A stretch of 64,000 nt of DNA, taken from NCBI GenBank assembly GCA_021781655.1, contig JAJXWJ010000003.1:1-64000 (forward strand), in the 5' to 3' direction. The translations under genes were made by a program, and so were the position numbers. A model generated the notes under the pieces. The model ran no database searches, was not told the DNA's origin, and saw only the letters and a program-made list of their open reading frames with translations. This DNA comes from Bacillota bacterium (GTDB lineage Bacteria; Bacillota; Clostridia; Clostridiales; Clostridiaceae). Below are positions 3,443 to 27,581 of this stretch, piece after piece; positions within the stretch are counted from its first letter, which is position 1, and each line of letters opens with the position of its first letter.

Positions 3443-4687
3443 ATGAAATTATCAAATGAGTTGGAGGTAGATAAGCCGATTTTTGACAAGTGGCCTTACT
3501 ATGATGAAAATGAAGTAATAGCGTTAAAAAATGTTTTGGAAAGTAAACGATGGGGAGGTATATTTGATAATTCTCAGAATGAATGTTTTGAGAGAGAATT
3601 TGCAGATTATAATGGGAGTTCATATTGTATGTCTGTCTGTAATGGAACATCAGCTTTGTATATTGCCTTAATTGCTGCAGGAATTAGGGCAGGTGATGAA
3701 GTTATAGTTCCTTCGTTATCATTTATTTCTACTGCTACAGCAGTAACATGGTGTGGAGCAGTACCGGTATTTGTTGATGTGGATCCTAAAACATTGTGTA
3801 TAGATATATCAAGCATTGTAGACGCAGTAAGTGAAAAAACACGTGCAATAATACCAGTTCATCTATGGGGAAATGTCTGTGACATGGAGAAAGTTTCAAA
3901 GATTGCAAATCAGCATAATTTAATTATAATTGAAGACTGTTGTCAAGCTATAGGGGCATCTCTTAAAGATAAAAAGGTGGGGACGTATGGTATAGCAGGA
4001 GTTTTTAGTTTTGCTTTTAATAAAAGTGCAAGCTGTGGAGAGGGTGGAGCGCTAATTACTAATGATTATGAGTTATATTTGAAATTATCAAGATTGCGGA
4101 ATCATGGACGATTAAAATCGGAATCAAATGTTCATCCACATATTGGTTGGAACTTTAGGATGTCAGAATTTGCAGCAGCTATATTAAGATGTCAATTAAA
4201 AAGATTAGAATTTCAAATATTAATGAAGAATAAAAATATTGAGTACATTTATAAGAATATTAAAGAAAATAAAATTGAATGGATAGAGCCGATAGAGACA
4301 ATTGAGGAATCAGTATCTAGTCCATTTGGATTGATATTTAAATTTATACCAACAAAAAGTGATTTTATACATAGAGAAGAAATTATAAAGTTATTAAAAG
4401 CAAAAGGTATTCCCATAGGCGAAAGAACGGTAATACAGTTACAAAGTAATCCAATATATGCAAACGAAAATATAGATGATTACTGCATAAATCGTTCAAT
4501 ATGTAGAAGAAATGGAGATATAGATGTATTTGTTATTGGGCAACCATTAGGTTATGAGGTATTATTAGCAGAAAAAGAGAAAATTGACTATCTAATTAAT
4601 AGTTTAATCGAAGTTAACAAAATGATTATAGAGAATAATAGTGAGATGGGAGGAAAAAATAATGGCGTATGTATTGGGGATATGTAG
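3443..4687 (+). CDS. DegT/DnrJ/EryC1/StrS-family PLP aminotransferase
   Basis: 414 residues, the usual length for this fold-type I family, which aminates keto-sugars, scyllo-inosose-type cyclitols or related carbonyls in antibiotic and surface-sugar pathways. Visible family features are SVCNGTSALYIALIAAG near the N-terminus, PVHLWG, IIEDCCQAIGA and the likely PLP lysine K194 in FAFNKSASCGEGGAL. The ATG at 3443 was chosen because GGAGG sits five bases upstream; a longer reading from 3374 lacks such a site. The gene overlaps the next one by 26 bases, so they are probably translated together. The sugar or cyclitol substrate cannot be named from sequence; butirosin-type BtrS/BtrR are functional relatives. 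Confidence 0.88.
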   Translation: MKLSNELEVDKPIFDKWPYYDENEVIALKNVLESKRWGGIFDNSQNECFEREFADYNGSSYCMSVCNGTSALYIALIAAGIRAGDEVIVPSLSFISTATAVTWCGAVPVFVDVDPKTLCIDISSIVDAVSEKTRAIIPVHLWGNVCDMEKVSKIANQHNLIIIEDCCQAIGASLKDKKVGTYGIAGVFSFAFNKSASCGEGGALITNDYELYLKLSRLRNHGRLKSESNVHPHIGWNFRMSEFAAAILRCQLKRLEFQILMKNKNIEYIYKNIKENKIEWIEPIETIEESVSSPFGLIFKFIPTKSDFIHREEIIKLLKAKGIPIGERTVIQLQSNPIYANENIDDYCINRSICRRNGDIDVFVIGQPLGYEVLLAEKEKIDYLINSLIEVNKMIIENNSEMGGKNNGVCIGDM

Positions 4688-6368
4688 CAATGTTCATATG
4701 GCTTCGGCAGCACTATGCTATGATGGGGATATTGTTGCAGCAATTGCTGAGGAGAGATTAACACGAGAAAAAAATTCTCGTAAATTTCCTAAAAATAGCA
4801 TTGAATACTGTTTGAAAGAAGCTGGAATTAAAATGAATGATATATCATGTGTATATATTGCTAATGATCCAGGTGTACCATTAAATATGTATGATTACCG
4901 ATATGTAGATGTGTTAAGGTGGTATCCTGAAATTATATATCAAATTCCTATGGAATTAGCCCCTTTTTATAAAAGTGAGTATATTGGACCACTTGAGCAA
5001 AAATTAAACTATGATAATTGCCATTTAAAGGTAAACTATATCAGTCATCATCTTTCACATATGGCTAATGCATTCTATCTTTCTCCTTTTAAAGATGCGG
5101 CTATTCTAACTGTTGATGGATGTGGAGAGGACGGGACCGCGATATTTGGGCTTGGCACTAATAAAGAAATGATGAAAATTAGGACTCAGATATATCCTCA
5201 TTCTTTAGGATTATTCTATGGAACCATAACTGAGTTTTTAGGATATAGACATGATAGAGATGAATGGAAAGTAATGGGGATGTCTGCATATGGGCATAAA
5301 AATAATGAGTTTTACTACAAGTTAAGAAAACTAATTGAAATTAAAGATGATGGTACTTTTGAGTTAAATTTAAAATATTTTAATTTTTACCTTGAATATA
5401 GTAGTAGCATGTATAGTGATGCTTTAGTTGAATTAATTGGATGTCCTCCTGTAGCTAATAATAAATTAGAAGCTGTTCATTTTGAAATAGCAGCGGCCAT
5501 ACAACAAATTATAGAAGAAATTTTAACACATATGCTTGAAGTATTATACAAAGAGACAAAATGCTCAAATGTTGTTCTTGGTGGTGGAGTTTTTATGAAT
5601 TCATTATTTAATGGTAAATTATTAAAGACAACACCATTTGAAGATATGTTTATTTCTAGTTGCCCTGATGATAGTGGTTTAGCAATAGGTGCAGCTTTAT
5701 ATGGGTACTACAACAATTACAATGGAGTAAGGTTAGGAAAACAGATTCAAAACTATTATGGACCAAGTTTTTCAATGGATGATATTGAAAGAGAATTAAG
5801 AAAAGCTAAATTACAAATAAGAAAGGTAGAAGATATTGAAAGATATATTGCGGAGAAACTAGCGGATGGTAAGGTTGTGGGATGGTTCCAGGGAAGAATG
5901 GAGCTTGGACAAAGGGCATTAGGAAATAGATCAATATTAGCAGATCCAAGAAAAGAACATATGAAAGATCACGTTAACAGCAGTATAAAATTTCGTGAGA
6001 AATATAGACCATTTGCATCATCGGTTATTGCAGAAGATTTTTCACTGTATTTTGATGAAGATTATGCAGAATACACTAAATTCATGTCTTTGGCATTAAA
6101 AGTAAAAGATGATAAGAAAAAAGATATACCAGCAGTAATTCATGAAGATGGTACAACAAGAGTTCAAGCGGTAAAGAAAGAAGAAAATTTTAAATTATAC
6201 AAATTATTAACAGAGTTTAAAAAAATCACACAAATTGGAGTGCTATTAAATACTTCATTTAATATTCAAAATGAGCCAATTGTTTGTAATCCTCAAGATG
6301 CTATACGAACTTTTTATTCTTCAGGTTTAGATATATTAGTTATTGAAAACTATGTGATTGAGAAATAA
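4662..6368 (+). CDS. NodU/CmcH-family carbamoyltransferase
   Basis: 568 residues with both halves of the family: an N-terminal Kae1-like ATPase-fold domain with SHHLSHMANAF (histidines 129, 130 and 133, likely metal ligands), LTVDGCGEDG and LGGGVFMNSLFNGKLL, and a C-terminal Carbamoyltrans_C domain with GRMELGQRALGNRSILADPR. Relatives (NodU, TobZ, CmcH, NovN) move a carbamoyl group from carbamoyl phosphate, through a carbamoyl-AMP intermediate, to a hydroxyl of a sugar or antibiotic. ATG at 4662 follows GGGAGG; an upstream GTG at 4641 is a poorer choice. It overlaps the genes on both sides. The acceptor is unknown, but coupling to the aminotransferase suggests a carbamoylated amino sugar or similar unit. 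Confidence 0.9.
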   Translation: MAYVLGICSNVHMASAALCYDGDIVAAIAEERLTREKNSRKFPKNSIEYCLKEAGIKMNDISCVYIANDPGVPLNMYDYRYVDVLRWYPEIIYQIPMELAPFYKSEYIGPLEQKLNYDNCHLKVNYISHHLSHMANAFYLSPFKDAAILTVDGCGEDGTAIFGLGTNKEMMKIRTQIYPHSLGLFYGTITEFLGYRHDRDEWKVMGMSAYGHKNNEFYYKLRKLIEIKDDGTFELNLKYFNFYLEYSSSMYSDALVELIGCPPVANNKLEAVHFEIAAAIQQIIEEILTHMLEVLYKETKCSNVVLGGGVFMNSLFNGKLLKTTPFEDMFISSCPDDSGLAIGAALYGYYNNYNGVRLGKQIQNYYGPSFSMDDIERELRKAKLQIRKVEDIERYIAEKLADGKVVGWFQGRMELGQRALGNRSILADPRKEHMKDHVNSSIKFREKYRPFASSVIAEDFSLYFDEDYAEYTKFMSLALKVKDDKKKDIPAVIHEDGTTRVQAVKKEENFKLYKLLTEFKKITQIGVLLNTSFNIQNEPIVCNPQDAIRTFYSSGLDILVIENYVIEK

Positions 6369-7338
6369 AAAAGTGTTAAATTATAAAACAATACAAGATA
6401 ATTGGAATATAAAAATAGTTGATGAGCTTGAATTAGTAAAAAATCAAGGATATATGAGTAGGGTTTGGAAATGTAAGGATAATTCAAAAGAATATATATT
6501 GAAAGAATTTGCAATCAGATTTGATGAAAGAAGTATTTATCCAGCATGTGAATGTCAAAAATACTTAGCTTTATTTGGATTAGCGCCTAATGTCTACTAT
6601 ACAAAAGACATGATGTTATACTGCAAGATTGATAAACATTTTTATTTTTTATCAGATAAAATTGAAGGTACAAATATAAAAAGCAGAAATTTATCAAAAG
6701 AGATTATAAGTTGTTTAGGTAAGTTTGTCGCCAGTATTCATTTAAGATTAAGTACAATGAACATACATTTAGAAGATTATCATACATGGTTTGAAGTTCC
6801 TAACGTTGAAAGAAAAAAAATAGAGTTTAAGGATCTGATTGCTTCTGATATAAGTGGATATAGTTTTTTAGAAGAACAATACTATTATTTTTTAAAATTC
6901 GTAAGCAACAAGCATCTGAATTTTAAATTTCCATTTCAATTTATACATGGGGATATGCATTTGAATAATATAATCATGAGCTTGCAGAATAACGACTTAA
7001 AAATAATAGACTTTGATCAGGTCTCATTTTTCCCACGTGTTTATGAAATAGGGAGATTTTTATTAACTATAATCAATTTGGAAAAGGATTTTCATGGGAA
7101 TATCAAAATTTTTCAAATATTTTTTCATGCATATACAAGTATATATCCTCTTAGTAAAGATGAAAAGTCGGGAATGTTTGATTATTATTATTTTTGTTTA
7201 ATTTCAAATGTTATTTGCTATTATAAAGAGTATGAGGTAAAAGATAATCTTAAATTTGTTCTTGAACGGTTACAAAAAATGAGGTGGATTAATGAAAATA
7301 TAAATCTAATTAAGGAATTTTTAAATAGTGACTTTTGA
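6358..7338 (+). CDS. Aminoglycoside-phosphotransferase-fold protein
   Basis: 326 residues of the APH/choline-kinase fold. The catalytic loop FIHGDMHLNNII (histidine about residue 197, Asp two later, Asn downstream) and the metal-binding KIIDFDQVSFFPRVYEIGRFL are intact, so it is probably an active kinase. The start appears to be TTG at 6358, overlapping the carbamoyltransferase by 11 bases; GTG at 6373 is an alternative. Members phosphorylate small-molecule hydroxyls (aminoglycosides, macrolides, homoserine, choline). In this operon it may phosphorylate a pathway intermediate or give self-resistance. The gene ends the first operon; the next 330 bases are non-coding. Confidence 0.8.
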   Translation: MRNKKVLNYKTIQDNWNIKIVDELELVKNQGYMSRVWKCKDNSKEYILKEFAIRFDERSIYPACECQKYLALFGLAPNVYYTKDMMLYCKIDKHFYFLSDKIEGTNIKSRNLSKEIISCLGKFVASIHLRLSTMNIHLEDYHTWFEVPNVERKKIEFKDLIASDISGYSFLEEQYYYFLKFVSNKHLNFKFPFQFIHGDMHLNNIIMSLQNNDLKIIDFDQVSFFPRVYEIGRFLLTIINLEKDFHGNIKIFQIFFHAYTSIYPLSKDEKSGMFDYYYFCLISNVICYYKEYEVKDNLKFVLERLQKMRWINENINLIKEFLNSDF

Positions 7339-7484
7339 TTAAGAAAATATCTAGCAGTAAGATTTAAGGTATAATAAAAATTTTTGTAACAGCAATAATG
7401 TTAATTTTGTTTTTTAATAAGTGTTTCAAGTTATTATTTTTTTGCAAAGTTCTATAGAAAATTAGATATTTAATATAATGAATG

Positions 7485-7513
7485 TTGACATAAAATATGA
7501 AAATTTGTATTTT
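7485..7513 (+). promoter_or_regulatory. Possible promoter in the 7339-7669 gap
   Basis: The 331-base gap between the APH-like and HPrK-like genes is strongly AT-rich and has no convincing gene. It contains TTGACA (7485-7490), a 17-base spacer and TATTTT (7508-7513). If real, it would drive the HPrK-like gene, with a leader of about 150 bases. AT-richness makes such matches common. Confidence 0.35.
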
Positions 7514-7669
7514 ATTTAAAATATAATGTATTTGGGAAGCATTATACAAATGTCACATGCTTGTGTAAACAACTTAATGTAAGATGATTAGGAAGGTTTA
7601 ATAGAAAAAGACTATGTTATAGATGATAGGTAGTGTAAGTGAGAATTTTATTGGATATGGGAGGATTAA

Positions 7670-8815
7670 ATGGAACATACAGGAAAACAATTGAACTCAG
7701 AAATTAAAACCGAATTTAATCAAAAAATATATTACTTGAAAATTTATTTAGATGAGATAGTTATTGGAATTCAACTTAATGACTTAATATATTACAATTG
7801 GATTCTTAAATATTTTCAAAATTATTTTAATGAAATTACATGTTATAAAGAAGAGTACAAATATGATAAAGACATTATAAATATTGAGGTTTATAATTAT
7901 AATGATTTGATTGCTCTTAGAAATCAAGTTTTAAATGATAATAATTATATACCCGAAATAATAACTTATCATTCATATTTTTCTAGTAATCGCAAATGTG
8001 AACATGAATATTGTGTTATAAACGATATAAATGGAGAAAGTAAGAAAATAATTGTTTTTATTCCTAATAAATGTGAGGAAGCTAAATATACAGTTATAAG
8101 AATAATTAGAAATATACTTATTCATTTATCGTGTAATTCTGGATTATTATATTTACATGCGGCAGCGGTTGAGAAAAATGGGAGTGGAATAGCTATAGTA
8201 GGAAATAAATATGCTGGCAAAACAACGACCTTGATTAATTTGATAACTTACGGAGACTGTTCCTTTATTACAAACGATAAATTGTTGTTAAATGGATGTA
8301 AAGAAACATACATATATGGTCTTCCAATATCTATAGGAATAAGAAGCGGAACTATTTTGAAAAATAAAATTTTGTTTGATAAAATTTGGTTTAATCGAAG
8401 AAAATTCGAACATTATTTATGTCAGAGAGAATTAGATGGGCTAGATAGTGAAGAAGAATATATAAAATACCTAAAAGAAAATCTGGGAAAAATATTTCTA
8501 CTACCTTATGAATTGTGTAATCTTTTAGACACTAATATCGTATCTAAATCACCGCTTAAAATAATAATAATACCTGAATATAATATAAACTGTGTTAAAC
8601 CTGAAATAAACAAAGTCTCAAAAAAGGAGTCCCAGAAGGTTATAGAAAATAATGTTTTAGAGTACGATGGGTTTCGAAATAAAATTTTAAATAACAATAA
8701 GACAATAATAGCTAAGTTCCTTGATTCAGTAGAAGTTTTTAAAATAGAATATAATGAAAATTTAGTTAAAAGTTTAATTGAAATAGTAGACAATTTATTA
8801 AAATCTAATTTGTAA
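7670..8815 (+). CDS. HPr-kinase-like P-loop protein
   Basis: 381 residues. The N-terminal 150 residues are not recognisable. The C-terminal part resembles HPr serine kinase: LHAAAVEKNGSGIAIVG leads into a P-loop GNKYAGKTTT (about residues 178-187), followed by FITNDKLLLNG. The upstream half of a true HPr kinase is absent, as in the HPrK-like proteins found beside lasso-peptide and PqqD-type systems, where some phosphorylate the product peptide. ATG follows GGGAGG. No lasso cyclase or leader peptidase is present, so its substrate here is open. It stands alone between two non-coding gaps. Confidence 0.75.
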   Translation: MEHTGKQLNSEIKTEFNQKIYYLKIYLDEIVIGIQLNDLIYYNWILKYFQNYFNEITCYKEEYKYDKDIINIEVYNYNDLIALRNQVLNDNNYIPEIITYHSYFSSNRKCEHEYCVINDINGESKKIIVFIPNKCEEAKYTVIRIIRNILIHLSCNSGLLYLHAAAVEKNGSGIAIVGNKYAGKTTTLINLITYGDCSFITNDKLLLNGCKETYIYGLPISIGIRSGTILKNKILFDKIWFNRRKFEHYLCQRELDGLDSEEEYIKYLKENLGKIFLLPYELCNLLDTNIVSKSPLKIIIIPEYNINCVKPEINKVSKKESQKVIENNVLEYDGFRNKILNNNKTIIAKFLDSVEVFKIEYNENLVKSLIEIVDNLLKSNL

Positions 8816-8883
8816 ACATAATGAATACTCTCGGAAACTAAATAATAAATAACAAAAATTTATGCAGTTTAAAGTATGCCTGA

Positions 8884-9090
8884 TTAAGGTTTATTTAAAG
8901 CAGGTCGTCTGCCAGTTTTTGAGTAGTAATGTTCTAAAGCAGAATGAAGCGAATCAAGATTAAGGAAAGTAAGCTTTTTTATTGAATCAGAGAAAGAAGA
9001 AAGTTTTTTACGTAAGGAATCATCTAAAGATGATTCAGTGTTAGAAAGAAAGTCAATGTATTTCTTGTGTGAAGTCCAAAATTTTAACAT
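8884..9090 (-). pseudogene. Probable transposase N-terminal fragment
   Basis: A minus-strand frame of 68 residues ending in EHYYSKTGRRPALNKP, with a good ribosome site upstream (AGGAGGTG on the minus strand). The ending resembles the N-terminal region of DDE transposases just before the conserved 'LRSL' helix, where it stops. I could not assign a family. The surrounding gap (8816-9297) otherwise holds a small inverted repeat CGAG-TTTA-CTCG around 9235-9247 and no other gene. Confidence 0.4.
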
Positions 9091-9297
9091 GTGTGAGCAC
9101 CTCCTAAAAAATGTATTGTAATTAAGAGGCTACGCCACAAATTTCTATCACATCGTCAAGTATATTATACAGAAAAGTTAAAAAATATGCATAAATTTTG
9201 GAGGAAACAGAAAGGAATGCTAATAATAAAAATCGAGTAAACTCGGGCTTTTCAGAGTTTCTGAGAGTACTCATAATTAATTTGGAGGGAAAAAATT

Positions 9298-10473
9298 ATG
9301 AATTTATTGGAAGAGAAAATCAGAAGAGACATACCAGAAATTTTTAATGAAAAAAAACTAATCAAACAACATCTTGATCGTTTGATTTGTATAATAAATA
9401 ACACAATTATTCCACCATACGAGATAATAATACAACCGTCAAGTGTATGTAATTTAAGATGCATGTGGTGTATAGGTAAGAATATTGATGAATATACAAA
9501 TAAATTAATGGATCAAAGATTAAGTAATGTTGATTCTATGTTAAAAATGATAAAGGGAATAATAGACTATAAAAAAGATATTCGGTATGAGGATAATGAA
9601 ATCAGAAATTATAAAGTGGAAAAAATTCAATTTTCTGGGCTTACAGGTGAACCGCTTGTATGCAAAGAACCTATTTTAGCAGCGATGAGAGAACTAGTAA
9701 AAAATGATAGACAAGTTGGTATGTTTACTAATGGAATTCTAATGGATGAAAGCACATGGGAAACATTAATTGATACAAATTATGTACTAGTTAGTGTTGA
9801 TGCAGGGCAAGGAGCTACGTATAATTCTATGAAGTATCCAGATTCAAATGATGATATTATAGGAAAAGTTCATAGTAATATTAATGGATTAATTAAACTT
9901 AGGAATCGTAGACAAAGTAATTTAGATGTTAATGCAGGGTTTGTTATTAATCCAGATAATTATAAAGAACTATATATGGCAGCTAAAAATTTAAAAGATA
10001 TAGGTATTCATTATCTTAGAATAAAAACAGACATATCATCCACGTATAATTTGAGTAGTGATCAGATAAAAGAATCAGAGGAAATTTTACAAGAAACAAA
10101 GCTAAAATTAGAAGATGATTATTTTAAGATTATTGAAATCCATAAAATATATGATAATGACGCTAAGAAGCGTAATTTCAGTAAATGTTATATGAATTCA
10201 ATTATGTCAGCAATTTCAGCTGATGGTGAGATGTATCCTTGTAATTATCAAACAAAAATTGGTAGACAACCTTATGGGAATGTAATTGATAAACCTTTTG
10301 GAGATGTCTTTGAAATGAAAATTGAGCGTGATTTACGTTATAAAATACCTGAAAATTGTCCCAAAGTATGCGATCCATTTAAAAACCGTTCTAATAGATT
10401 ATTTGAGATTGTTGAAGGAATATATCATGAATATGGGTTAGAAGCCCTTAAGGCATATATAAGAGAATTATAA
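9298..10473 (+). CDS. Radical SAM protein with SPASM-like C-terminus
   Basis: 391 residues. The CX3CX2C cluster motif is at C51, C55 and C58 (CNLRCMWC), followed by a typical SAM TIM barrel (FSGLTGEPLVCKEPI, the GGEP-like loop). The C-terminal third has further cysteines in CYMNSIMSAISADGEMYPC and NCPKVCDPF, the pattern of SPASM or twitch domains that hold auxiliary 4Fe-4S clusters. Such enzymes modify peptides or small amines by radical chemistry (anSME-like, or BtrN-like dehydrogenation in butirosin). ATG follows TTGGAGGGA. It is 17 bases from the Nudix gene, implying a shared transcript. No peptide substrate gene was found nearby. Confidence 0.85.
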   Translation: MNLLEEKIRRDIPEIFNEKKLIKQHLDRLICIINNTIIPPYEIIIQPSSVCNLRCMWCIGKNIDEYTNKLMDQRLSNVDSMLKMIKGIIDYKKDIRYEDNEIRNYKVEKIQFSGLTGEPLVCKEPILAAMRELVKNDRQVGMFTNGILMDESTWETLIDTNYVLVSVDAGQGATYNSMKYPDSNDDIIGKVHSNINGLIKLRNRRQSNLDVNAGFVINPDNYKELYMAAKNLKDIGIHYLRIKTDISSTYNLSSDQIKESEEILQETKLKLEDDYFKIIEIHKIYDNDAKKRNFSKCYMNSIMSAISADGEMYPCNYQTKIGRQPYGNVIDKPFGDVFEMKIERDLRYKIPENCPKVCDPFKNRSNRLFEIVEGIYHEYGLEALKAYIREL

Positions 10474-10490
10474 AAAGGAGAACTGAAAAT

Positions 10491-10988
10491 ATGGAGAAAA
10501 ATGATGCACGTCAAATTCTTATCTTGCCTTATTATATTGATAAAAGTGAAGATAAATTATATTATGCATTGTTTAAAAGCAAGGATACAGAAGTGTGGAT
10601 GGGCGTATCAGGAGGTTGTCATTTTGGCGAAGATTATGAAAAAGCAGCCATTCGTGAGGCAGAAGAGGAAATTGGATTTAGCGGAGATATACTACAATTA
10701 GATACTGTAGCATATATAAGAAAAGATATTTTTTATAACTTCAAAGATTGGAATGATGATATATTGGTTATTCCCCAAGTGTATTTTGGAATGCAATTAA
10801 AGAAGAAATTAATAGCATTAAATGACGAATTCATTGAATTTATATGGGTAGATTTTGAATCAGCATATAAGATGTTGTTTTTTCAAAACAATAAGACTGC
10901 TATTTGGGAATTAAATGCAAGATTATTAAAAAAATTAAAAGGTAAGGATTTCTTAAATTATAGGGTTTTTTCTATTGATTGCGTATAA
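10491..10988 (+). CDS. Nudix hydrolase with intact Nudix box
   Basis: 165 residues. The box GX5EX7REUXEEXGU is complete in GGCHFGEDYEKAAIREAEEE plus IGF. Nudix enzymes hydrolyse nucleoside diphosphates linked to another group, such as dNTPs, NDP-sugars, ADP-ribose or CoA. It closely follows the radical SAM gene, so it may act in the island pathway, for example on an NDP-sugar or nucleotide intermediate, but this is inference. A second, related Nudix gene follows after a gap of about 190 bases. Confidence 0.85.
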   Translation: MEKNDARQILILPYYIDKSEDKLYYALFKSKDTEVWMGVSGGCHFGEDYEKAAIREAEEEIGFSGDILQLDTVAYIRKDIFYNFKDWNDDILVIPQVYFGMQLKKKLIALNDEFIEFIWVDFESAYKMLFFQNNKTAIWELNARLLKKLKGKDFLNYRVFSIDCV

Positions 10989-11182
10989 ACCAAATGTAGA
11001 AAATTTCAAAACATTGAGTGTTAATAAGGGGACAGAGAATCTACAATAGTTTATTATTTTTAAAATGTAGAGCATAATATAATAAAATGATGATATAGAT
11101 AGTTACAAGTTTGAAAGATATAGAAGTAAATTTTATGCAAATTTAACGTATAATTAAGTAATATTACAGGAGGATGTTGTAT

Positions 11183-11638
11183 ATGGCAAGAGCAAAATTT
11201 CAGATATTATTAATACCTTACTTAAAAAAAAATGAAGTCATTGAATATTGCATTTTTAAGAGAAAGGATTTAGGTATATGGCAGTTTATTGCAGGCGGAG
11301 GAGAAGATGATGAAATACCACTAGAGGCTGCTAAGAGAGAAGGATATGAAGAAGCTAAGATTGATATTAATAGTAAATATGTTCAACTAAAATCGATAAC
11401 TAGTATCTCAACGGAATTTTTTACAGAAAAGCATAGGGAAATTTGGGGAAAGGAAACTTTGGTTATTCCGGAATATTCCTTTTCAGTTGAATTACGTAGT
11501 AAAGAGATTATTATAGCGGAAGAGCATACAGAGTTTATATGGGTTACTTATGAAGAAGCCAAGAACCTACTTAAATGGGATAGTAATAAAACAGCATTGT
11601 GGGAACTAGACAATATTATTAAAATGAGTCTCTTATAA
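11183..11638 (+). CDS. Second Nudix-family protein, altered box
   Basis: 151 residues, related to the preceding Nudix protein (both share LLIPYL/ILPYY openings, VIPEYSF/VIPQVYF and EFIWV near the end). The Nudix box is GGGEDDEIPLEAAKREGYEE followed by AKI: the catalytic Glu residues are kept, but the box glycine is replaced by Lys. Activity is therefore likely but not certain. ATG at 11183 is preferred over 11174 because AGGAGG at 11168-11173 is spaced nine bases from it. A tandem duplication followed by divergence is the simplest origin. Confidence 0.8.
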   Translation: MARAKFQILLIPYLKKNEVIEYCIFKRKDLGIWQFIAGGGEDDEIPLEAAKREGYEEAKIDINSKYVQLKSITSISTEFFTEKHREIWGKETLVIPEYSFSVELRSKEIIIAEEHTEFIWVTYEEAKNLLKWDSNKTALWELDNIIKMSLL

Positions 11639-12301
11639 ATAATTTAATAAAATGAGTTATAGAGCATAGCATTAGAATTTAAATTAGCAGACAGGTCACT
11701 TATGTATTCTTATTGTTTTAAATTTCTGAGCTAAGATTATATCTAAAATATTAGTAAATGTTCTGGGAACCTCTATTAATAAGAAATTATACTGAATATT
11801 TGCTAAAAATATTCAAATACCAGAAACAATAGAAAGAGAGAATGATGGGAATATAATTCTAGGAGATTATATGATTAAGTAAAGTATATTCTTATATATC
11901 AAGAATTGATGTTAGCTGCAATTAAGTTATTATATTTAACTGCTGACACTACAATTATAACTAAGAAAGTATGAAAATTATGATGGCAAACTCTGTTGTT
12001 TCAACTCAGGAAATTAGTAAACTATTAAATTTCAAAATCAAATCTATAATATTAAGGATATTGATTTATTAAATAGAGAAAGTGCAAATTTTTAAAAGAT
12101 ATGTATAGAAAAACAAACTTTTTCCTATAGGAATTTCAGTTCAAAGTAAATTCAAAAAAGAAGATATACTTGTTGAAACTGAAATTGTTTATCTTTTGAT
12201 AATTATTTAAACAAACCAAAGTTTTAATGACTACTAATACTAGAAATAAAAAAGTGATTGACGGAATTATTATTAAATTATTGTTTAGGAGGATGTGAAG
12301 A
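11639..12301 (+). other. Non-coding gap with decayed coding-like sequence
   Basis: These 663 bases have no intact gene. Short stretches translate into plausible protein (for example around 11990-12050 and 12110-12210, in changing frames), as expected from a decayed gene, but I could not identify the family. The last 30 bases carry a good GGAGGA ribosome site for the dehydrogenase pseudogene. Confidence 0.4.
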
Positions 12302-14849: not shown

Positions 14850-15226
14850 AAATAAACTAATAAATAATGGTGCTCATGTTAAGACTTTTGATCCTATGGG
14901 GATTGAAAATGCAAAAATAATTTTTAAGGATGAAAAAGATAATGTTAAATTTTGTGAAAATATTGAACAAGCAATGCAGGATGCTAATGCAGTAGTTATT
15001 ATGACTGGATGGCATCAATTTAAAAATATTGATCTACTAAATGCAAAGAAAATATTAAAAATCCTATTATTTTCGATTATCGGAATTTATATTCGAAAGA
15101 ATGTGTTGAAAGGATTGGGTTTAGATATACTGGGATTGGAATTTAATTTCAATTCGCATGGTTTAAATACACTGTCTTTAGACGATATAATCTTATAGCC
15201 ATTTAAGAAACTATAAATATGACAAT

Positions 15227-19255: not shown

Positions 19256-19490
19256 AGATGTAGTTTTGCAATGTCATAATGCACTATTAAAAGAGAAAGG
19301 AATTAATAAAATATCTAGTCCGGATATGGATATGACTAGAGAAAATGGTATTGATTCTTTAGGAATTGTTTCGTTAGTTCTAGAAATTGAGGAAGAATTA
19401 GGGGTTGAGTTGGACTCAGTGTTGGCAATGATTAGAAAAAGTAAAAAAATCGCTGAATTTATTGAGGTTATTGAGAATGCAATTGGATAG
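19242..19490 (+). CDS. Acyl/aminoacyl carrier protein
   Basis: 82 residues with the phosphopantetheine site GIDSLGIVSL (Ser39) in the usual four-helix setting and acidic helix 2 (LEIEEELGVEL). It overlaps the ligase gene upstream and the BtrH-CYTH gene downstream (14 bases each), so its partner relations are clear: charged by the ligase, primed by the Sfp-type transferase at 25709, unloaded by the BtrH-type protein. AAGGAGGTG provides a strong ribosome site inside the ligase gene. Confidence 0.92.
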   Translation: MKNVKDVVLQCHNALLKEKGINKISSPDMDMTRENGIDSLGIVSLVLEIEEELGVELDSVLAMIRKSKKIAEFIEVIENAIG

Positions 19491-21066
19491 AAAATATATA
19501 CACGAAATATATAATCAAGAACAGAATTTTTATGATGGATATGAATCATTCTGTTTTCAGAATTGTTTACGTATTCTTCTGGAATCAAAAGGATTCAGGA
19601 GTGCTGCTCTATACATTAATTCATCATTGTCTTTAATATATGATGAAAATGAGGACGTTTGTAAGTTCCGTACACATGAAAATGTAAGGGGGTTACTACC
19701 TTCTCTTAATGATTATGTAAAAAGATATTATTATGATAGCCCAAATAAAGAAGAAATTTTTTATGAAAACATTAAATACATGTTTACCCATAATGAGCCA
19801 ATTATTGTGGGTGTAGATACATATTATTTACCATATGCAATAAATTATATGAAGAATCATGCTGTTCATACTCTAATATTGGCCGGATATGATTTGGATA
19901 GAAATGAAGTGAACTTAATTGATTGGTATGAGCCTTGGCTTTTTAAAGGTACCATAGATATAGATATTTTCTTGCAGGCAAGGAATTCAGAAAATCCATA
20001 TGATGGTACGGTATTCAGTGGAGTTCCTATTCAAAATAATTGGGCATATATAGAGAAATTCGATCAGAAAGAAACTAGAAAATTATTTAAAGAAGTTATT
20101 CAGTATACAATGAAACAGTATTATGTAGACTACGACAACGTAGGACCACAGGCTTTATGCAAAATGTATAATTATTTTAAGAGTTGTAAAAGTGAATCAG
20201 GATATATTGGTATATATAAAGATATATATACCGGAATAAAGCGACACAAGTTATTCTTATTATATTTAAGTATATATTTAACTATCGAAGATATAAAGTT
20301 GTTAGCTAATGCTATTGAATTGTTAAAAGAAGTTGTTAAAAAATGGGATATTATGTTAATGCTTTTAATGAAGCAAGCAAAAAATCCTACAGAGAGAACT
20401 AAAACTCGTGCTTTAAATAAGTTCCAAGAAATAATAGAGGATGAAAGCAAATTATATACATGCATAAATCAAATTAATGATTTTCTAAACACAACTGAAC
20501 TTGAAAAGGAAGTGAAGATACTTTTAAATAAACAGGAGTATGAAAGGCTTAATAATGTATTTTTATGGAACGATAAGTTTCAACAGATAAACTACTATTA
20601 TTTAGACCGAGAAAAAATGCTACAAAAAAATAATATTACTGTGCGAGTAAGGAAAAAAAGAGACACTTATAAGTTACAAATCAAAATTCCAGTCAAAATT
20701 GAAAGGGAATTACATATCAAGTCTGAATATGAGGAAGATGTAGATAATGATCTAAGTTTTATTCCAGCAAATAAGATTGAAAAAGTTTGTAACATTTCTG
20801 TTGGTGATGCTTCAAAGATTGGAGAACTAGTTACAGAGAGACAAGTTTGTCAGTGGAATGATGATATTAAAATATGCTTAGATAGAAATACATTTTTAGG
20901 AATGGAAGATTATGAGCTTGAAATTGAATACACTAATCGATTAGATAAACAGATTATAGACAAAATCAAGCAGTGTAATATATCTGTAGGAAACTCGACA
21001 AAAGGGAAGTATGGAAGGTTTTCTGAAAGATACTTTTCTATTAAAAGTGAGGAGGAATTAGGTTGA
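19477..21066 (+). CDS. BtrH-type acyltransferase fused to a CYTH domain
   Basis: 529 residues from ATG 19477 (GAGG nine bases upstream; overlaps the carrier gene). Residues 1 to about 200 match the BtrH_N fold: Cys26/Cys30 in FCFQNCLRILLE, His131 in HAVHTLILAGYD and Asp149 in NLIDWYEPW form the expected Cys-His-Asp triad. In butirosin, BtrH moves an acyl group from a carrier protein to an amine. A helical linker follows. Residues 341-529 are a CYTH/triphosphate-tunnel domain with the ExExK signature EKEVK (343-347), TVRVRKKRDTYKLQIKI, the TERQ strand and LDRNTFLGMEDYELEIEY. I know of no characterised BtrH-CYTH fusion. The tunnel may bind or hydrolyse a polyphosphate or nucleotide, or bind a phosphate-bearing acceptor. 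Confidence 0.85.
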   Translation: MQLDRKYIHEIYNQEQNFYDGYESFCFQNCLRILLESKGFRSAALYINSSLSLIYDENEDVCKFRTHENVRGLLPSLNDYVKRYYYDSPNKEEIFYENIKYMFTHNEPIIVGVDTYYLPYAINYMKNHAVHTLILAGYDLDRNEVNLIDWYEPWLFKGTIDIDIFLQARNSENPYDGTVFSGVPIQNNWAYIEKFDQKETRKLFKEVIQYTMKQYYVDYDNVGPQALCKMYNYFKSCKSESGYIGIYKDIYTGIKRHKLFLLYLSIYLTIEDIKLLANAIELLKEVVKKWDIMLMLLMKQAKNPTERTKTRALNKFQEIIEDESKLYTCINQINDFLNTTELEKEVKILLNKQEYERLNNVFLWNDKFQQINYYYLDREKMLQKNNITVRVRKKRDTYKLQIKIPVKIERELHIKSEYEEDVDNDLSFIPANKIEKVCNISVGDASKIGELVTERQVCQWNDDIKICLDRNTFLGMEDYELEIEYTNRLDKQIIDKIKQCNISVGNSTKGKYGRFSERYFSIKSEEELG

Positions 21067-22058
21067 AAGATACCTTGATTAAAGTAGATAATATAAAAAA
21101 GTCATTTAAAATTAACAAGAGAGCGAATGGACTTCCAGGACATATCGCTAATCTTTTTGTACCAAAGTATGAAATGAGAAAAGCTGTAGATGGTATTAAT
21201 TTTGAAATTAAAAAGGGTGAAGCAGTAGGATTTATAGGTTCTAATGGTGCGGGAAAATCAACAACGATAAAAATGTTGTCAGGAATCTTATATCCAGATG
21301 AAGGGAATATAGAGATAGCTGGATTTATTCCATATAAGCAAAGAAAGGCATATGTGTCCAATATTGGGGTTGTATTTGGACAAAAATCACAATTATCTTG
21401 GGACTTGCCCATTATAGATAGTTATGAACTATTAAAGCATATTTATAAAATTCCATATGAAACATATGAAAAAAATCTAAAACAATTTACAGAACTTTTA
21501 GATATGTCTTCCTTTATTGAGCAACCGGTAAGACAGCTTTCGTTAGGTCAGAGAATGAGGGCTGATATAGCTGCATCGTTATTACATTCGCCTAATTTAG
21601 TTTTCTTTGATGAACCAACCATCGGATTAGATGTTGTGGCAAAAGAAAGGATTAGAGAATTTATTCGTTATATTAATCGGGAAAAAGGAATTACGATAAT
21701 ATTTACTACACATGATATGCAGGATATAGAAAAGACCTGTAGCAGGCTAATATTAATTGATAAAGGCAAAAAGTTATATGATGACAGCGTAAATGGATTA
21801 TTAGAAAAATATTCAACTCAGAGAAAATTGAAAGTTGAATTTGAGGTGGATTATAATATAGAACCAATTGAAAATGTTGTTATAGAAAACAAGGAAAATA
21901 ATAAGAAAGTCTTTTCTTTTAGTAATCAAAATGTATCTATTAAAAGTCTTATTTCTGATTTAATGGGAAGGTATGAAATAAAAGACATGTCTATTGAGGA
22001 AATGGATATTGAAAGTGTAGTAAGGAAGATATATGAAGGAGGAATCAAGATTTCATGA
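21063..22058 (+). CDS. ABC-2 type exporter, ATP-binding protein
   Basis: 331 residues. Walker A GSNGAGKSTT (about 58-67), signature LSLGQRMR (about 158) and Walker B LVFFDEPTIGLD (about 178-189) are intact. A C-terminal extension of about 100 residues follows, as in drug and polysaccharide exporters of the ABC-2 class. TTG start preceded by GAGGAGG; overlaps the BtrH-CYTH gene by four bases and the first permease by four (ATGA). It should power export of the island product and possibly give self-resistance. Confidence 0.93.
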   Translation: MKDTLIKVDNIKKSFKINKRANGLPGHIANLFVPKYEMRKAVDGINFEIKKGEAVGFIGSNGAGKSTTIKMLSGILYPDEGNIEIAGFIPYKQRKAYVSNIGVVFGQKSQLSWDLPIIDSYELLKHIYKIPYETYEKNLKQFTELLDMSSFIEQPVRQLSLGQRMRADIAASLLHSPNLVFFDEPTIGLDVVAKERIREFIRYINREKGITIIFTTHDMQDIEKTCSRLILIDKGKKLYDDSVNGLLEKYSTQRKLKVEFEVDYNIEPIENVVIENKENNKKVFSFSNQNVSIKSLISDLMGRYEIKDMSIEEMDIESVVRKIYEGGIKIS

Positions 22059-22843
22059 GTACATATTTAGGGTATTTTAAGATAGCATTTCATAATAATA
22101 CTGTGTATAGGGTGGAATACTTACTTGGAATATTAAACACATGTCTTCAAATCTTTATTTCATGTACAATATGGAAAGTTTTATACGGAGGTCAACCAGA
22201 GGTAAAAGGAATTACGTATGCTGCAGTTGCAACTAATCTAATAATTGCGCTTGGACTTAGTAATGCATTTTCACTAAATGACTTTTCAATCCAGCAAAAA
22301 ATTGGCGACGGTTCTATTGCAATGGAACTACTAAAGCCCATTGATTTAAGGATTAGTTTGCTTGCTGGAAACCTTGGAGAGATTATATTCAAATTATTAA
22401 CTAATTTTATTCCATCTGTGATATTTGCGGCATTGTTTATAGGTATTCTGCCGCCTGCGGGAGTTGTGGCAGTAATCTTTTTCGTGATTAGTGTTGTATT
22501 GGGTTTTGCGATACTATGGACAATTAGTACAATTATTCAGATGACTGCTTTTTGGATAATAAATGTGTGGAGTGTATCTACAATTAAAAATGTAATCATA
22601 AATATTTTAGCAGGTGCTTCCTTACCACTATGGTTTATGCCAGAATATATTAAAAAATTTATTCAATACACTCCATTTGATTCCATTTATTTTGTGCCAG
22701 TAAAAATATATATGGGAAAGATAAGCGATGGCGATATACTTTTCTATTATGGTAAGCAGATTATGTGGTTTGTTTTGTTATATACTATAGGTTTTCTTAT
22801 GTGGCAGAGAGGAAAAAGAAGAATTGTGGTACAAGGAGGATGA
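22055..22843 (+). CDS. ABC-2 family permease (first)
   Basis: 262 residues with about six hydrophobic segments (for example LLGILNTCLQIFISCTIW, FFVISVVLGFAILWTI, MWFVLLYTIGFLMW). The pattern and the pairing with a second, similar-sized permease fit the ABC2_membrane_6 (DUF990) group of exporters. It lies in the tight operon 18119-25399, overlapping the ATPase gene and ending two bases before the next permease. Confidence 0.85.
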   Translation: MSTYLGYFKIAFHNNTVYRVEYLLGILNTCLQIFISCTIWKVLYGGQPEVKGITYAAVATNLIIALGLSNAFSLNDFSIQQKIGDGSIAMELLKPIDLRISLLAGNLGEIIFKLLTNFIPSVIFAALFIGILPPAGVVAVIFFVISVVLGFAILWTISTIIQMTAFWIINVWSVSTIKNVIINILAGASLPLWFMPEYIKKFIQYTPFDSIYFVPVKIYMGKISDGDILFYYGKQIMWFVLLYTIGFLMWQRGKRRIVVQGG

Positions 22844-22845
22844 TT

Positions 22846-23667
22846 ATGGATAATAATAGTAATGATAACTCATTTTATATGTTTCTTTATTATGCAAAGA
22901 ATACAATAAAATCATGGTTTCAATATAAAGTAGATGCCTGTATGCGATCTCTAGCAGTGTTCTTAAGGGAAGCTGCAGGTATAGTAGTTATTTACCTTAC
23001 ACTTATGACTTTTGATAATATAAATGGGTGGAAGCCAAATGAATTATTATTCTTATTTAGTTTGCTTTTCTTGACATATGGTGTACTGATTATATTTTTC
23101 ACTGGTTTACGAGATTTTGAGAATATGATAAACAATGGAGGGTTTGATAGATTTATTTTGCGTCCAAGAGGTTTGCTATTTCAGGTAATAGCTAGTAATG
23201 CAGATTGGTTTGCAGCCATTGGGCATGGTGGATTGGGTATTACTTTATTTATTATTTCAGCAGGGGAAATAGGTATATCGTGGAATTTGAAAACTATTTT
23301 GTACTATATTGCAGTGGTTATCGGTGGAGTATTAATTCAGGGAGCAATTTTTTTAGTAATGGCATCACTAAGCTTTTACTTTATCAAGTCTAGGAATATA
23401 AGTGAGGTCTTTTATTGGAATGTTAGAAAATTTGCTGGTTATCCAATAAGTATTTTTCCAAAGATTATTCAGTATATTATGATGTATATTGTCCCATTTG
23501 CATTTGTAAACTATTTTCCAGCTCAATATTTCCTTAGAAAGAGCGACATGAATCAGTATCCACTTTTATTTATGTATATAACGCCTGTAGTAGGTATAGT
23601 ATTGTATTTGTCTGCTTATGTATTTTGGAGGAAAAGTTTATTTCATTACAAAAGTACAGGAAACTAG
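22846..23667 (+). CDS. ABC-2 family permease (second)
   Basis: 273 residues, about six membrane segments (VFLREAAGIVVIYLTL, LLFLFSLLFLTYGVLII, ILYYIAVVIGGVLIQGAIFL and others). ATG at 22846 is set by GGAGG six bases upstream; a longer frame from 22765 overlaps the first permease without a ribosome site. With the first permease and the ATPase it forms a three-component exporter. Confidence 0.85.
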   Translation: MDNNSNDNSFYMFLYYAKNTIKSWFQYKVDACMRSLAVFLREAAGIVVIYLTLMTFDNINGWKPNELLFLFSLLFLTYGVLIIFFTGLRDFENMINNGGFDRFILRPRGLLFQVIASNADWFAAIGHGGLGITLFIISAGEIGISWNLKTILYYIAVVIGGVLIQGAIFLVMASLSFYFIKSRNISEVFYWNVRKFAGYPISIFPKIIQYIMMYIVPFAFVNYFPAQYFLRKSDMNQYPLLFMYITPVVGIVLYLSAYVFWRKSLFHYKSTGN

Positions 23668-23689: not shown

Positions 23690-25399
23690 ATGTTTTACGA
23701 TAAAGTAGTACAAGGTACTTTGATTCAAGGTGAAAATGTGTATCCGGCGGAAACTTTAAAAGAACAAATTGAAAGAATAAAAATAATCCTTAATAGTTTA
23801 AATTTGAAAGAGCCTTTAGTTGCATTGGCTTTACCCCGAAATGTTTATCTTATAGCATCAATGTTTGCATCACTAGAAAGCAATATTACATTTTTGCCTA
23901 TAGATACAGGACAGCCAAAAGAACGGATACAATATATGCTAGAATTTGCTCAAGTAAGCTATGTGCTTACCTTAACTGAAAATGTTTTTGACTTTGGAGG
24001 CATTAATACAATATATTTGGATAATCATGAATATAATACTGATATATGTATACAAAATGATAATATTAAAAACAACATAGCTTACATTTTATATACTTCT
24101 GGTACAACAGGGAAACCTAAAGCTGTAGAAATTACAAGGGAAGGTTTGAATAATTTTATCGAAGGAATCCCTTCATTAATCGAATTTAATGAGGGAAAAA
24201 GATTGGCATGTTTCACAAGTGCAACATTTGATATATTCTTTTTAGAAACAGTGGTGGCACTTTATAAAGGTGTGAATGTAGTTTTGGCGAATGAAGATGA
24301 ACAGAATAATCCTAAGAAAATGATTAAAATATTAGATGATTATTCTATTAATATGATACAGATGACACCATCTCGCTTGAAGATAATACAAGCATTTGAT
24401 AATGAATTTGAATGTTTAAAAAATATTCATACCATAATGATTGGTGGAGAAAAACTCCATTATGAAATTTTTAAAAGCTTACAAAACAAAACAAAGGCCA
24501 AAATATACAATATGTATGGTCCAACAGAAACTACTATATGGTCTACAGTAAGTGAACTTACAAAAAAAAACAAAATAGATATTGGACAACCGATTCTTAA
24601 TACAAGAGTATACTTACTTTCTGATGATATGAAAGAAGTTACTAATGGAAACATTGGGGAAATTTGCATTAGTGGTAGCGGTTTGGCAAGGGGTTATTTG
24701 AATAGTGAAATACAAACAGAAAAATCATTTTGTAACTTATCTTTTTATCCATACGAAAGAATTTATAGAACTGGAGATTTAGGAAGATATGATGAAGATG
24801 GTGATTTATTATGTTTGGGTAGGAAAGATGAACAGATAAAATTACGGGGACACAGAATTGAGTTAGAGGATATTGATACTAATATGCTAAAAGTTACAGG
24901 AATAAAGATGATAGCATCTTGTTTCGACACTGAAAAAGAACAGTTGATTTCATTTTATATAAGTGATACTAATTTAGATGATAAAGTTATACATAAGCAG
25001 GCTAAATTATATTTACCAGAATATATGATACCAGATAAGTTTTGCAGAGTGGAACATATGATGTATACATCAAGTGGTAAAATGGATCGAAGAGCACTTC
25101 TTAGTGCTAACAAGGATGTTGAGAAGATAGCCAGTGAAATGCATGAAGTTGACTCAAAAATAAAAGATGAAGTTCTGGAAGTTGTAACTAACACCATCAG
25201 AACTGTAACAGAAAGTACAATAACTTTACTAGATGGAAAAACAAAGATTGAGGAATTAGCACTAAATTCAATTAGCTATATCAATATGATAGTTGAATTA
25301 GAGAGCATATTTGATATTGAATTTGAAGATGAAAAATTGGGAGTTACAGCGTTTGAAAGTGTTGATTATATTGTGAAATATATTAAAGAACTAATGTAA
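23690..25399 (+). CDS. NRPS adenylation-PCP didomain
   Basis: 569 residues. Adenylation motifs are ILYTSGTTGKPKAV (A3), YNMYGPTETTIWS (A5), YRTGDLGRYDEDGD (A7), GRKDEQIKLRGHRIE (A8) and SSGKMDRRAL with the catalytic Lys (A10). A carrier domain follows from about residue 490, with Ser527 in LALNSISYI as phosphopantetheine site. No condensation, epimerisation or thioesterase domain is present. By position, the specificity residues read D-I-L-Q-M-G-M-I-W-K, very near the glycine code D-I-L-Q-L-G-L-I-W-K as I remember it, so glycine or another small amino acid is my prediction. It is the last gene of the operon begun at 18119. Confidence 0.92.
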   Translation: MFYDKVVQGTLIQGENVYPAETLKEQIERIKIILNSLNLKEPLVALALPRNVYLIASMFASLESNITFLPIDTGQPKERIQYMLEFAQVSYVLTLTENVFDFGGINTIYLDNHEYNTDICIQNDNIKNNIAYILYTSGTTGKPKAVEITREGLNNFIEGIPSLIEFNEGKRLACFTSATFDIFFLETVVALYKGVNVVLANEDEQNNPKKMIKILDDYSINMIQMTPSRLKIIQAFDNEFECLKNIHTIMIGGEKLHYEIFKSLQNKTKAKIYNMYGPTETTIWSTVSELTKKNKIDIGQPILNTRVYLLSDDMKEVTNGNIGEICISGSGLARGYLNSEIQTEKSFCNLSFYPYERIYRTGDLGRYDEDGDLLCLGRKDEQIKLRGHRIELEDIDTNMLKVTGIKMIASCFDTEKEQLISFYISDTNLDDKVIHKQAKLYLPEYMIPDKFCRVEHMMYTSSGKMDRRALLSANKDVEKIASEMHEVDSKIKDEVLEVVTNTIRTVTESTITLLDGKTKIEELALNSISYINMIVELESIFDIEFEDEKLGVTAFESVDYIVKYIKELM

Positions 25400-25708: not shown

Positions 25709-26272
25709 ATGTGTGGAAATTCTACAGAAATTTCTGAAGTATTAAATAAGAGAGATTCACAACACCTTATTAGGATGTTTCTTAATCAGATGCAAATCAA
25801 TAAAGATGATTTTAAATTTGAACGAGGAAATTTTGGGAAACCATATCTATTGGAAAGTGTGATTTTTTTTAATCTCTCATATAGTGATAATTATATTGCG
25901 GTAGTATTTTCTAGACAGGAAGTTGGAATTGATATCGAAGAAATATCAAATTGTAAGTTCAAAATAATGGATAGATTTTTTACAAGTAATGAACAAAGTT
26001 ATATAAAGAATTCAAACAACTTAAATATGACCAATCAGAGATTTTATGAAATTTGGACAAGAAAAGAAGCATTTATTAAAAGAGATGGTCGAGGACTAAA
26101 TATACCACTTAGGAGTTTTGATGTTTTAATTAATGAAAATGTACCGTATTTTAATACAATATTCTATAATAATCACATAATTAGTATTTGTGTAGATAAA
26201 AAAGAGGAGTATGAAATACATAATCTGCAATTAGATAAATTGGATATGTTTGAATGCTGTATCAATAATTAA
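25709..26272 (+). CDS. Sfp-type 4'-phosphopantetheinyl transferase
   Basis: 187 residues, shorter than Sfp (about 224) because the N-terminal segment is short. Signature motifs are present: NFGKPYL, FNLSYSDNYIAVVFS, VGIDIEEI (Mg-binding Asp) and FYEIWTRKEAFIKRDGRGL (W-x-x-KEA). It primes the Ser of carrier domains with phosphopantetheine from CoA; clients here are the ACP (19242) and the PCP of the adenylation protein. The start is uncertain: no good ribosome site stands before ATG 25709. Confidence 0.9.
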   Translation: MCGNSTEISEVLNKRDSQHLIRMFLNQMQINKDDFKFERGNFGKPYLLESVIFFNLSYSDNYIAVVFSRQEVGIDIEEISNCKFKIMDRFFTSNEQSYIKNSNNLNMTNQRFYEIWTRKEAFIKRDGRGLNIPLRSFDVLINENVPYFNTIFYNNHIISICVDKKEEYEIHNLQLDKLDMFECCINN

Positions 26273-26537: not shown

Positions 26538-27581
26538 ATGAAGATTAAAGAGTTACCATTTAAATTACCAAACAAATTTATTGCTTATAAACCATTTGAT
26601 GCATCTCGTATATCTATTTTACTGGCTCAAGAATCATTATGCAAAGAGATATATGAAAATTTTTTACATTTTCGTATTGAAAAAGAAATTGAAAAAGAAA
26701 ATATAAAATTAGATTGTCATTTTAATGAAGAGTTTTCAAGCATAGGTGTAAAAAAAGTACCTATTGATATAATAACAGATTTAGGAATCGATTTTATAAC
26801 ATTTTGCAGGACAGCCATAGAAAAGGATTTTTATATTTTCTTACCGATCGAGACATTTGAAGTAAGTAACTATATAAATTATAAAAAAAAATATAGACCA
26901 CACCATATATTTATATATGGATATAATAATGAAAAGGAAGTATTTTATTGTTCAGAATTTTTTTCATTTGATAAGGGTATTTATTCATCAGAAACAGTTA
27001 CATATAGAGAAATGGAGGAGGCATATTATAAATTACAAACTGAATTAGAAAGTAAAGTGATGCTTAATGAATGGGCTCAGTGGATGAAAGATATTCAGCT
27101 TCTCCATAGTTTTAGAGAGTATAACGATAAATTTAATATTAAAAGATTAATTTTAGGATTACAGAATTTTCTTGAAGAGAATGATTGTTATGGGAATAAA
27201 AATTATATAAAAGATGTATTTTACGGTTTTGCTATTTATGATTTGATTATTGAATATATAAACAATATTTTGAAAAGTAGTAAAAGTAATTTTGATATAA
27301 AGAGTCTATCATTAATTTTTTACAGATTTCGTTATATGAAATTGCAAGCACAATTTATTCAAGAAAATTATTCAAAGTATAATCAAAGTATACAGTCAAT
27401 TATAGATAGCTATTGGGAAATGGAAGAAAAGTCCTATAATGCATTAAAATTGGCTATCAAGTTTTCGATAAGTCATGAAAAAAATATATTGAATAAAGTT
27501 ATAAATTTGATAGAAGAGCTTAAGAAAAATGATTATATTGTAACAATAAATTACATCGAATGTTTAAAAAATATCATTTAG
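26538..27581 (+). CDS. BtrH/C39-like protein lacking an evident catalytic Cys
   Basis: 347 residues. The segment YRPHHIFIYGYNNEKEVFYCSEFFSFDKG (H122/H123 near its start) resembles the second half of the BtrH/C39-like fold, where His is followed by a beta-hairpin and an acidic residue; compare HAVHTLILAGYDLDRNEVNLIDWYE in the BtrH-CYTH protein. The N-terminal part has no matching Cys in the expected place, only Cys35 in QESLCKEIYENF. The C-terminal 170 residues are helical and unrecognised. It may be a second acyl acceptor-binding or transferase subunit. AAAAGGGG precedes ATG by eight bases. I am fairly unsure of the family. Confidence 0.55.
   Translation: MKIKELPFKLPNKFIAYKPFDASRISILLAQESLCKEIYENFLHFRIEKEIEKENIKLDCHFNEEFSSIGVKKVPIDIITDLGIDFITFCRTAIEKDFYIFLPIETFEVSNYINYKKKYRPHHIFIYGYNNEKEVFYCSEFFSFDKGIYSSETVTYREMEEAYYKLQTELESKVMLNEWAQWMKDIQLLHSFREYNDKFNIKRLILGLQNFLEENDCYGNKNYIKDVFYGFAIYDLIIEYINNILKSSKSNFDIKSLSLIFYRFRYMKLQAQFIQENYSKYNQSIQSIIDSYWEMEEKSYNALKLAIKFSISHEKNILNKVINLIEELKKNDYIVTINYIECLKNII

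Follow-up and report, generated by a model that had tools for sequence, protein, structure and literature searches.

We describe a gene island at positions 3443-27581 of a 64,000-nucleotide stretch of DNA (the window) from the Bacillota bacterium assembly GCA_021781655.1 (contig JAJXWJ010000003.1, positions 1 to 64,000), whose core belongs to a real, conserved, and apparently undescribed family of aminoacyl-carrier gene clusters that lack condensation domains. The window is part of an 85.7-kb contig in a 3.7-Mb genome of 168 contigs, from the same family as Clostridium tepidiprofundi. The island holds 18 intact genes, all on the plus strand. We lean modestly toward reading it as a condensation-domain-free natural-product cluster in which the conserved core would act as an aminoacyl-transfer device by the mechanism proposed below, each step of which is plausible.

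Island proteins were scanned against Pfam, and against NCBIfam with the cut-offs of its models; some weak calls fall below cut-off. The gene and domain list of a preliminary description of this DNA was borne out by these scans, the HPrK-related kinase through HprK_rel_B and the second BtrH-like protein (BtrH2) through profile comparison. Its characterization of the island as a natural-product-type cluster with no polyketide synthase (PKS), condensation, or thioesterase genes also held, and the Pfam scan matched no condensation domain in any island gene. The right half of the island (15.7-27.6 kb), which contains the core, is organized as follows, where A-PCP denotes an adenylation domain with a peptidyl carrier protein (PCP) domain.

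15706-16794, plus strand: NTP_transf_5 nucleotidyltransferase, core (PF14907, 2e-25)
16837-17679, plus strand: PHP phosphoesterase (PF02811, 1e-13; likeness to 3',5'-nucleoside bisphosphate phosphatase, below cut-off)
18119-19255, plus strand: SerRS-like candidate amino acid:carrier-protein ligase, core (tRNA-synt_2b, 5e-6; PDB 3mey/4h2w)
19242-19490, plus strand: acyl/aminoacyl carrier protein, core (PF00550; serine motif GIDSLG)
19462-21066, plus strand: BtrH-like acyltransferase fused to a CYTH/triphosphate tunnel domain in one 528-aa frame, core (PF14399, 1e-7; PF01928, 1e-14)
21063-22058, plus strand: ABC exporter ATPase (PF00005)
22055-22843, plus strand: ABC-2 permease 1 (PF06182, ABC2_membrane_6)
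22840-23667, plus strand: ABC-2 permease 2 (PF06182, ABC2_membrane_6)
23690-25399, plus strand: stand-alone A-PCP, core (PF00501, TIGR01733; code DILQMGMIWK, predicted glycine)
25709-26272, plus strand: 4'-phosphopantetheinyl transferase, PPTase (PF01648, ACPS)
26538-27581, plus strand: BtrH2, catalytic Cys apparently lost (hhalign, 95% probability to the BtrH profile)

From the ligase to the second permease (18119-23667), successive genes overlap end to start, the carrier gene running into the BtrH gene, and the A-PCP gene begins 22 bp downstream, an organization that is not expected by chance. The first codons of the NTP_transf_5 reading frame as listed are an IS200 remnant, so we placed its start near 15706. 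No relative of this protein was detectable in the PDB.

Intact motifs, like the gene content and the conserved co-occurrence reported below, were observed directly. Alignment of the ligase to Bradyrhizobium Bll0957 placed putative zinc ligands at C194, E240, and C342, which we take to correspond to Cys131, Glu176, and Cys279 of Bll0957, and all three are invariant in four homologues. The adjacent carrier gene and the best NCBIfam match, PRK07080 (below cut-off), suggest that the ligase charges a carrier rather than a tRNA. The PF14399 (BtrH_N) match of the fusion protein is above cut-off; C25, H130, and D148 are invariant across three loci and, judging from the BtrH/C39 pattern, are its likely catalytic residues. 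In the CYTH domain, ExExK and the paired charged strands are kept in all three loci, and the best Foldseek matches of the CYTH half of the AlphaFold model are CYTH and triphosphate tunnel (TTM) structures.

Inspection of the A-PCP identified a PCP serine motif at its C-terminus. Its adenylation-domain code, read by eye from motifs, is one residue off DILQLGMIWK, the code reported for four glycine-activating domains (PMC12283262). By the same reading, R. bromii (see below) has the code of the window and C. tepidiprofundi has DVEQIGHVDK, and therefore the second amino acid probably varies between loci. BtrH2 had no family match; profile comparison aligned its second part with BtrH, and it shows 23-26% identity to R. 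bromii. A cysteine at the nucleophile position was not seen on inspection of BtrH2 or its R. bromii homologue, while the C. tepidiprofundi paralogue has one.

The right half of the island recurs in two other species, neither of them more than distantly related. In C. tepidiprofundi DSM 19306, the ligase (48% identity to the window), carrier (49%), BtrH (37%), CYTH (35%), PPTase (34%), A-PCP (31%), second BtrH, and NTP_transf_5 (48%) genes lie within ~16 kb, with APH and Nudix genes at the edges of this core. Ruminococcus bromii YE282 encodes NTP_transf_5 (47%), CYTH, ligase (46%), carrier, BtrH (45%), ABC ATPase (70%), permease 1 (60%), permease 2 (64%), A-PCP (45%), and BtrH2 in the order of the window, except for CYTH. 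The sister loci encode BtrH and CYTH as two linked genes and the window encodes them as one fused gene, which implies that they share a step. The co-occurrence that the preliminary description proposed as a check was thus found for the right half but not for most of the left.

The distribution of these genes is narrow. The BtrH profile matched 2 of 208 Clostridiaceae species, the window genome and C. tepidiprofundi, and when the class was searched with the ligase, close homologues within the family came from the same two genomes. The ligase profile turned up no further close member among 399 phylum genomes and 148 R. bromii relatives, and a ligase search of genome contigs returned three loci only. 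In a Lachnospiraceae metagenome-assembled genome with the ligase, the contig ends after that gene, and the best A-PCP matches are weak. We rejected G569 as a member because its ligase is only 28% identical and adjoins purine genes, and set aside an HPrK match in G250, whose neighbors look like housekeeping genes. The trio of ligase, carrier, and BtrH appears to be a recurring device, since it is also found on plasmids of Priestia koreensis and Alkalihalophilus. One further locus, L027, combines the trio with HPrK, NTP_transf_5, PqqD, radical SAM proteins, and the same exporter family. This rare, scattered, and syntenic distribution suggests that the cassette has spread horizontally as a functional unit.

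The catalytic assignments, the phosphate step, and the product described here are predictions. In the mechanism we propose, the SerRS-like ligase would load a small amino acid onto the free carrier and the A-PCP would load itself with an amino acid, predicted to be glycine, both carriers having been activated by the PPTase. BtrH would then pick up an aminoacyl group from a carrier on Cys25 and hand it over to an amine on the acceptor, mirroring the role of BtrH in butirosin. NTP_transf_5 and the kinases may place a phosphate or nucleotide on the acceptor or intermediate, which the CYTH domain tied to BtrH, together with the Nudix and PHP enzymes, would remove or trim at about the time the ABC-2 transporter exports the molecule. 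The window strain probably uses DegT and the carbamoyltransferase to decorate a scaffold resembling a sugar or cyclitol. Taken further, the clusters could form an undescribed Bacillota family whose nucleotide-linked products are built on carrier templates. Two different enzyme classes would activate amino acids, each on its own carrier, BtrH would attach these to a scaffold bearing phosphate or a nucleotide, and the CYTH domain fused to BtrH would tie this transfer to loss of the phosphate chain ahead of export; this fuller version is speculative, and we consider it rather unlikely to be right in its entirety.

Phosphate-type genes are frequent at these loci. The window has CYTH, NTP_transf_5, HPrK-like, APH, two Nudix, and PHP genes; the C. 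tepidiprofundi locus has a guanylate-kinase-like protein, a Nudix protein, and two PPDK-like proteins, and that of R. bromii has NDK-like and phosphoribosyltransferase-like proteins, although these sister loci are not an unbiased sample because they were partly picked through their CYTH match. The theme points to an intermediate that bears phosphate or a nucleotide and may be a self-protecting form; no other part of the model is as tentative. FomA and FomB in fosfomycin producers offer a parallel for such a form.

Other loci carry related genes in different settings. Upstream of the shared core in R. bromii (L031, 2420-8243) are CysRS-like, NDK-like, ThiS, ThiF, phosphoribosyltransferase, class IV aminotransferase, and amidohydrolase genes, hinting at sulfur incorporation. 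One genome (G114) has two loci with BtrH, an AMP-ligase, and NTP_transf_5 (L014, 2643-17817; L015, 8254-12958); L014 also encodes a thymidylate-kinase-like protein, a 5'-nucleotidase, and an exporter ATPase 55% identical to that of the window. CYTH and an ABC-2 exporter occur in plasmid clusters of Streptococcus salivarius pSaLI10 (L010, 9088-19869) and Geobacillus pGeo12a (L011, 5564-18177), with QueA-like, thymidylate-synthase-like, thymidylate-kinase-like, PqqD, and APH genes. On both plasmids the thymidylate-kinase-like gene adjoins CYTH and the exporter, and the clusters have the look of an undescribed pathway to a nucleoside or peptide. The window genome contains a second locus (L059; G000:C65:5001-25000) with Nudix, PHP, HPrK-like, thymidylate-kinase-like, NTP_transf_5, and GHMP-kinase-like genes and two U32 proteins, and no BtrH.

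The left half of the island (3.4-11.6 kb) encodes the following.

3443-4687, plus strand: DegT/DnrJ/EryC1 aminotransferase (PF01041, 3e-92)
4662-6368, plus strand: O-carbamoyltransferase, N and C domains (PF02543 and PF16861; 4e-55 and 2e-69)
6358-7338, plus strand: APH-fold kinase (PF01636, 2e-10)
7670-8815, plus strand: HPrK-related kinase, type B-like (HprK_rel_B TIGR04355, 1.5e-14, far below cut-off; no Pfam match)
9298-10473, plus strand: radical SAM/SPASM-like protein (PF04055, 3e-8; SPASM weak)
10491-10988, plus strand: Nudix hydrolase 1 (PF00293)
11174-11638, plus strand: Nudix hydrolase 2 (PF00293)

The nearest solved structures to DegT in the PDB are perosamine synthetases and 2-deoxy-scyllo-inosose aminotransferases, and those to the O-carbamoyltransferase are NovN, GdmN, and TobZ. 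In NCBIfam the APH gene is best matched, though below cut-off, by CotS/CotI spore-coat kinases. The HPrK-like protein has a Walker A motif and a weak FomB kinase match (1e-5, below cut-off). A carbamoylated amino sugar or cyclitol is a possible product; the guess of the preliminary description, an aminoacylated form of such a compound, is read solely from DegT and the O-carbamoyltransferase, and it overlooks the strong phosphate and nucleotide theme of CYTH, NTP_transf_5, HPrK, Nudix, and PHP, with nucleotide-kinase homologues in sister loci. Elsewhere, only HPrK, Nudix, APH, and radical SAM-type genes of the left half reappear alongside parts of the core.

Insertion sequence (IS) elements and a pseudogene lie within and around the island.

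661-1392, plus strand: truncated DUF772 transposase, left repeat copy (PF05598; 732 bp)
12451-15198, plus strand: UDP-glucose dehydrogenase pseudogene in four fragments (PF03721, PF00984, and PF03720 pieces)
13325-14524, minus strand: DDE transposase within the dehydrogenase pseudogene (PF13546/PF01609)
28118-28849, plus strand: right-hand copy of the transposase repeat (96.7% identity to 661-1392)

The two near-identical fragments flank the island as direct repeats and resemble a decayed composite transposon. The bracketed island sits inside a sugar-utilization region, with the end of a GH65 gene to its left (45-533) and, from 29109, LacI-type regulator, sugar ABC transporter, and alpha-amylase-like genes, read by eye. 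An island of about 24 kb on a single strand, as initially described, fits the 18 intact genes but not the region from 11.64 to 15.56 kb, where the four dehydrogenase fragments and the minus-strand transposase are not part of an intact operon.

Several observations weigh against our reading. The UDP-glucose dehydrogenase of the island is broken, and the island has no glycosyltransferase or cyclitol synthase as a source for the scaffold. CYTH enzymes can be general triphosphatases. The AlphaFold model of the BtrH-CYTH fusion has a mean pLDDT of 57, with a poor BtrH half and only the CYTH half usable, and that of BtrH2 has a mean pLDDT of 43. With the catalytic Cys apparently missing from BtrH2, only a single acyltransferase looks competent to serve the two charged carriers. 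DegT, the carbamoyltransferase, and the island radical SAM protein are absent from both sister cassettes, and no close relative of the radical SAM protein was seen among 321 Clostridia genomes; on these grounds, the whole 24 kb is not established as one pathway. The same absences favor two or more unrelated units, with the right-half core forming the pathway and the left-half genes from DegT to Nudix 2 a different set that IS elements placed beside it, which we regard as possible but somewhat unlikely. The halves lie 4 kb apart with the pseudogene and transposase between them, and IS repeats bracket and dot the island. However, all island genes share a strand, APH and Nudix genes edge the C. 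tepidiprofundi core, HPrK from the left half recurs with NTP_transf_5 and PHP from the right at G000:C65, and L027 unites HPrK and radical SAM proteins with NTP_transf_5, the exporter, and the trio. The link of the left half to the core is indirect, through these last two loci.

The IS pieces, the IS200 remnant at the NTP_transf_5 start, and the broken dehydrogenase would also fit a decayed, non-functional cluster degenerating under IS attack, but this is improbable given that 18 genes keep intact frames, the active-site residues checked are intact, and a second dehydrogenase copy elsewhere in the genome has no internal stops. We find it more improbable still that the island modifies a cell-envelope glycan, with DegT and the carbamoyltransferase making a modified sugar, the carriers aminoacylating it as in D-alanylation, and the ABC-2 transporter exporting the glycan. 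The DegT relatives are nucleotide-sugar aminotransferases, a UDP-glucose dehydrogenase remnant is present, and the A-PCP also matches DltA models, but the Pfam scan of the island matched neither a glycosyltransferase nor a polymerase nor a DltB-like acyltransferase, the cassettes occur rarely and in scattered genomes, and the sister loci have ThiS/ThiF, CysRS-like, NDK-like, or PPDK-like genes rather than sugar genes.

A condensation-free aminoacyl-transfer cluster remains the reading we prefer. Because standard mining for nonribosomal peptide synthetases (NRPS) and PKSs looks for condensation or ketosynthase domains, it easily misses carrier pathways of anaerobes that do without condensation. 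The marker set of SerRS-like ligase, carrier, BtrH, CYTH, NTP_transf_5, and A-PCP provides a handle for finding more such clusters, and one sister cluster belongs to a gut species, R. bromii. The fusion links an aminoacyl transferase with a triphosphate-binding enzyme, a pairing for which we know of no precedent. Consistent with the preliminary description, no known pathway with this gene set, and none of such content that pairs BtrH with CYTH or with an aaRS-like ligase, was found in the open-access literature (MIBiG was not covered).

Among known systems, the butirosin side-chain pathway (BtrI carrier, BtrJ ATP-grasp ligase, BtrK decarboxylase, BtrH) resembles the island in that a carrier accompanies a Cys acyltransferase of the BtrH family. 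In butirosin, BtrH serves as the acyl-carrier:aminoglycoside acyltransferase (PMC10318531), and aminoacyl transfer to an amine is likewise predicted for the island BtrH. In contrast to butirosin, the island has a SerRS-like ligase and an A-PCP in place of the ATP-grasp ligase, its BtrH is fused to CYTH, and it has no decarboxylase or cyclotransferase; neither BtrJ nor the PLP decarboxylase BtrK was among the island Pfam matches. Another locus (L026 in G196, 1987-13770), with BtrH, two carriers, an ATP-grasp protein, a LysA-like decarboxylase, a SerRS-like ligase, a protein that by eye resembles ketosynthase III, and the exporter, is closer to butirosin logic through its ATP-grasp and decarboxylase genes. 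The island ligase shares its catalytic domain, three zinc ligands, and an adjacent carrier with the SerRS-like amino acid:[carrier protein] ligase Bll0957, but its N-terminal part of ~120 residues is unmatched. As PMC2922099 notes, the description of stand-alone SerRS paralogues able to charge carriers dates from 2010; that paper reports a paralogous SerRS with a glycosidase/monooxygenase set, whereas the island ligase is paired with BtrH.

The island is like closthioamide, an NRPS-independent thiotemplated product, in being clostridial, NRPS-independent, and equipped with several stand-alone carriers; unlike closthioamide (as defined in PMC6772006), it has CYTH and a nucleotidyltransferase, and the Pfam scan matched no AANH thioamide synthetase (CtaC-like) among its genes. 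Some lasso-peptide clusters similarly bring together an HPrK-related kinase, a nucleotidyltransferase, and an ABC exporter, but the island has carriers and BtrH instead of a precursor and B or C proteins: the scan matched no lasso B or C proteins, and the three gap regions inspected held no convincing precursor peptide. It shares adenylation and PCP domains with NRPSs, but not the condensation domain. The trio of ligase, carrier, and BtrH is already a recurring one; what is new is its combination with CYTH, NTP_transf_5, and A-PCP.

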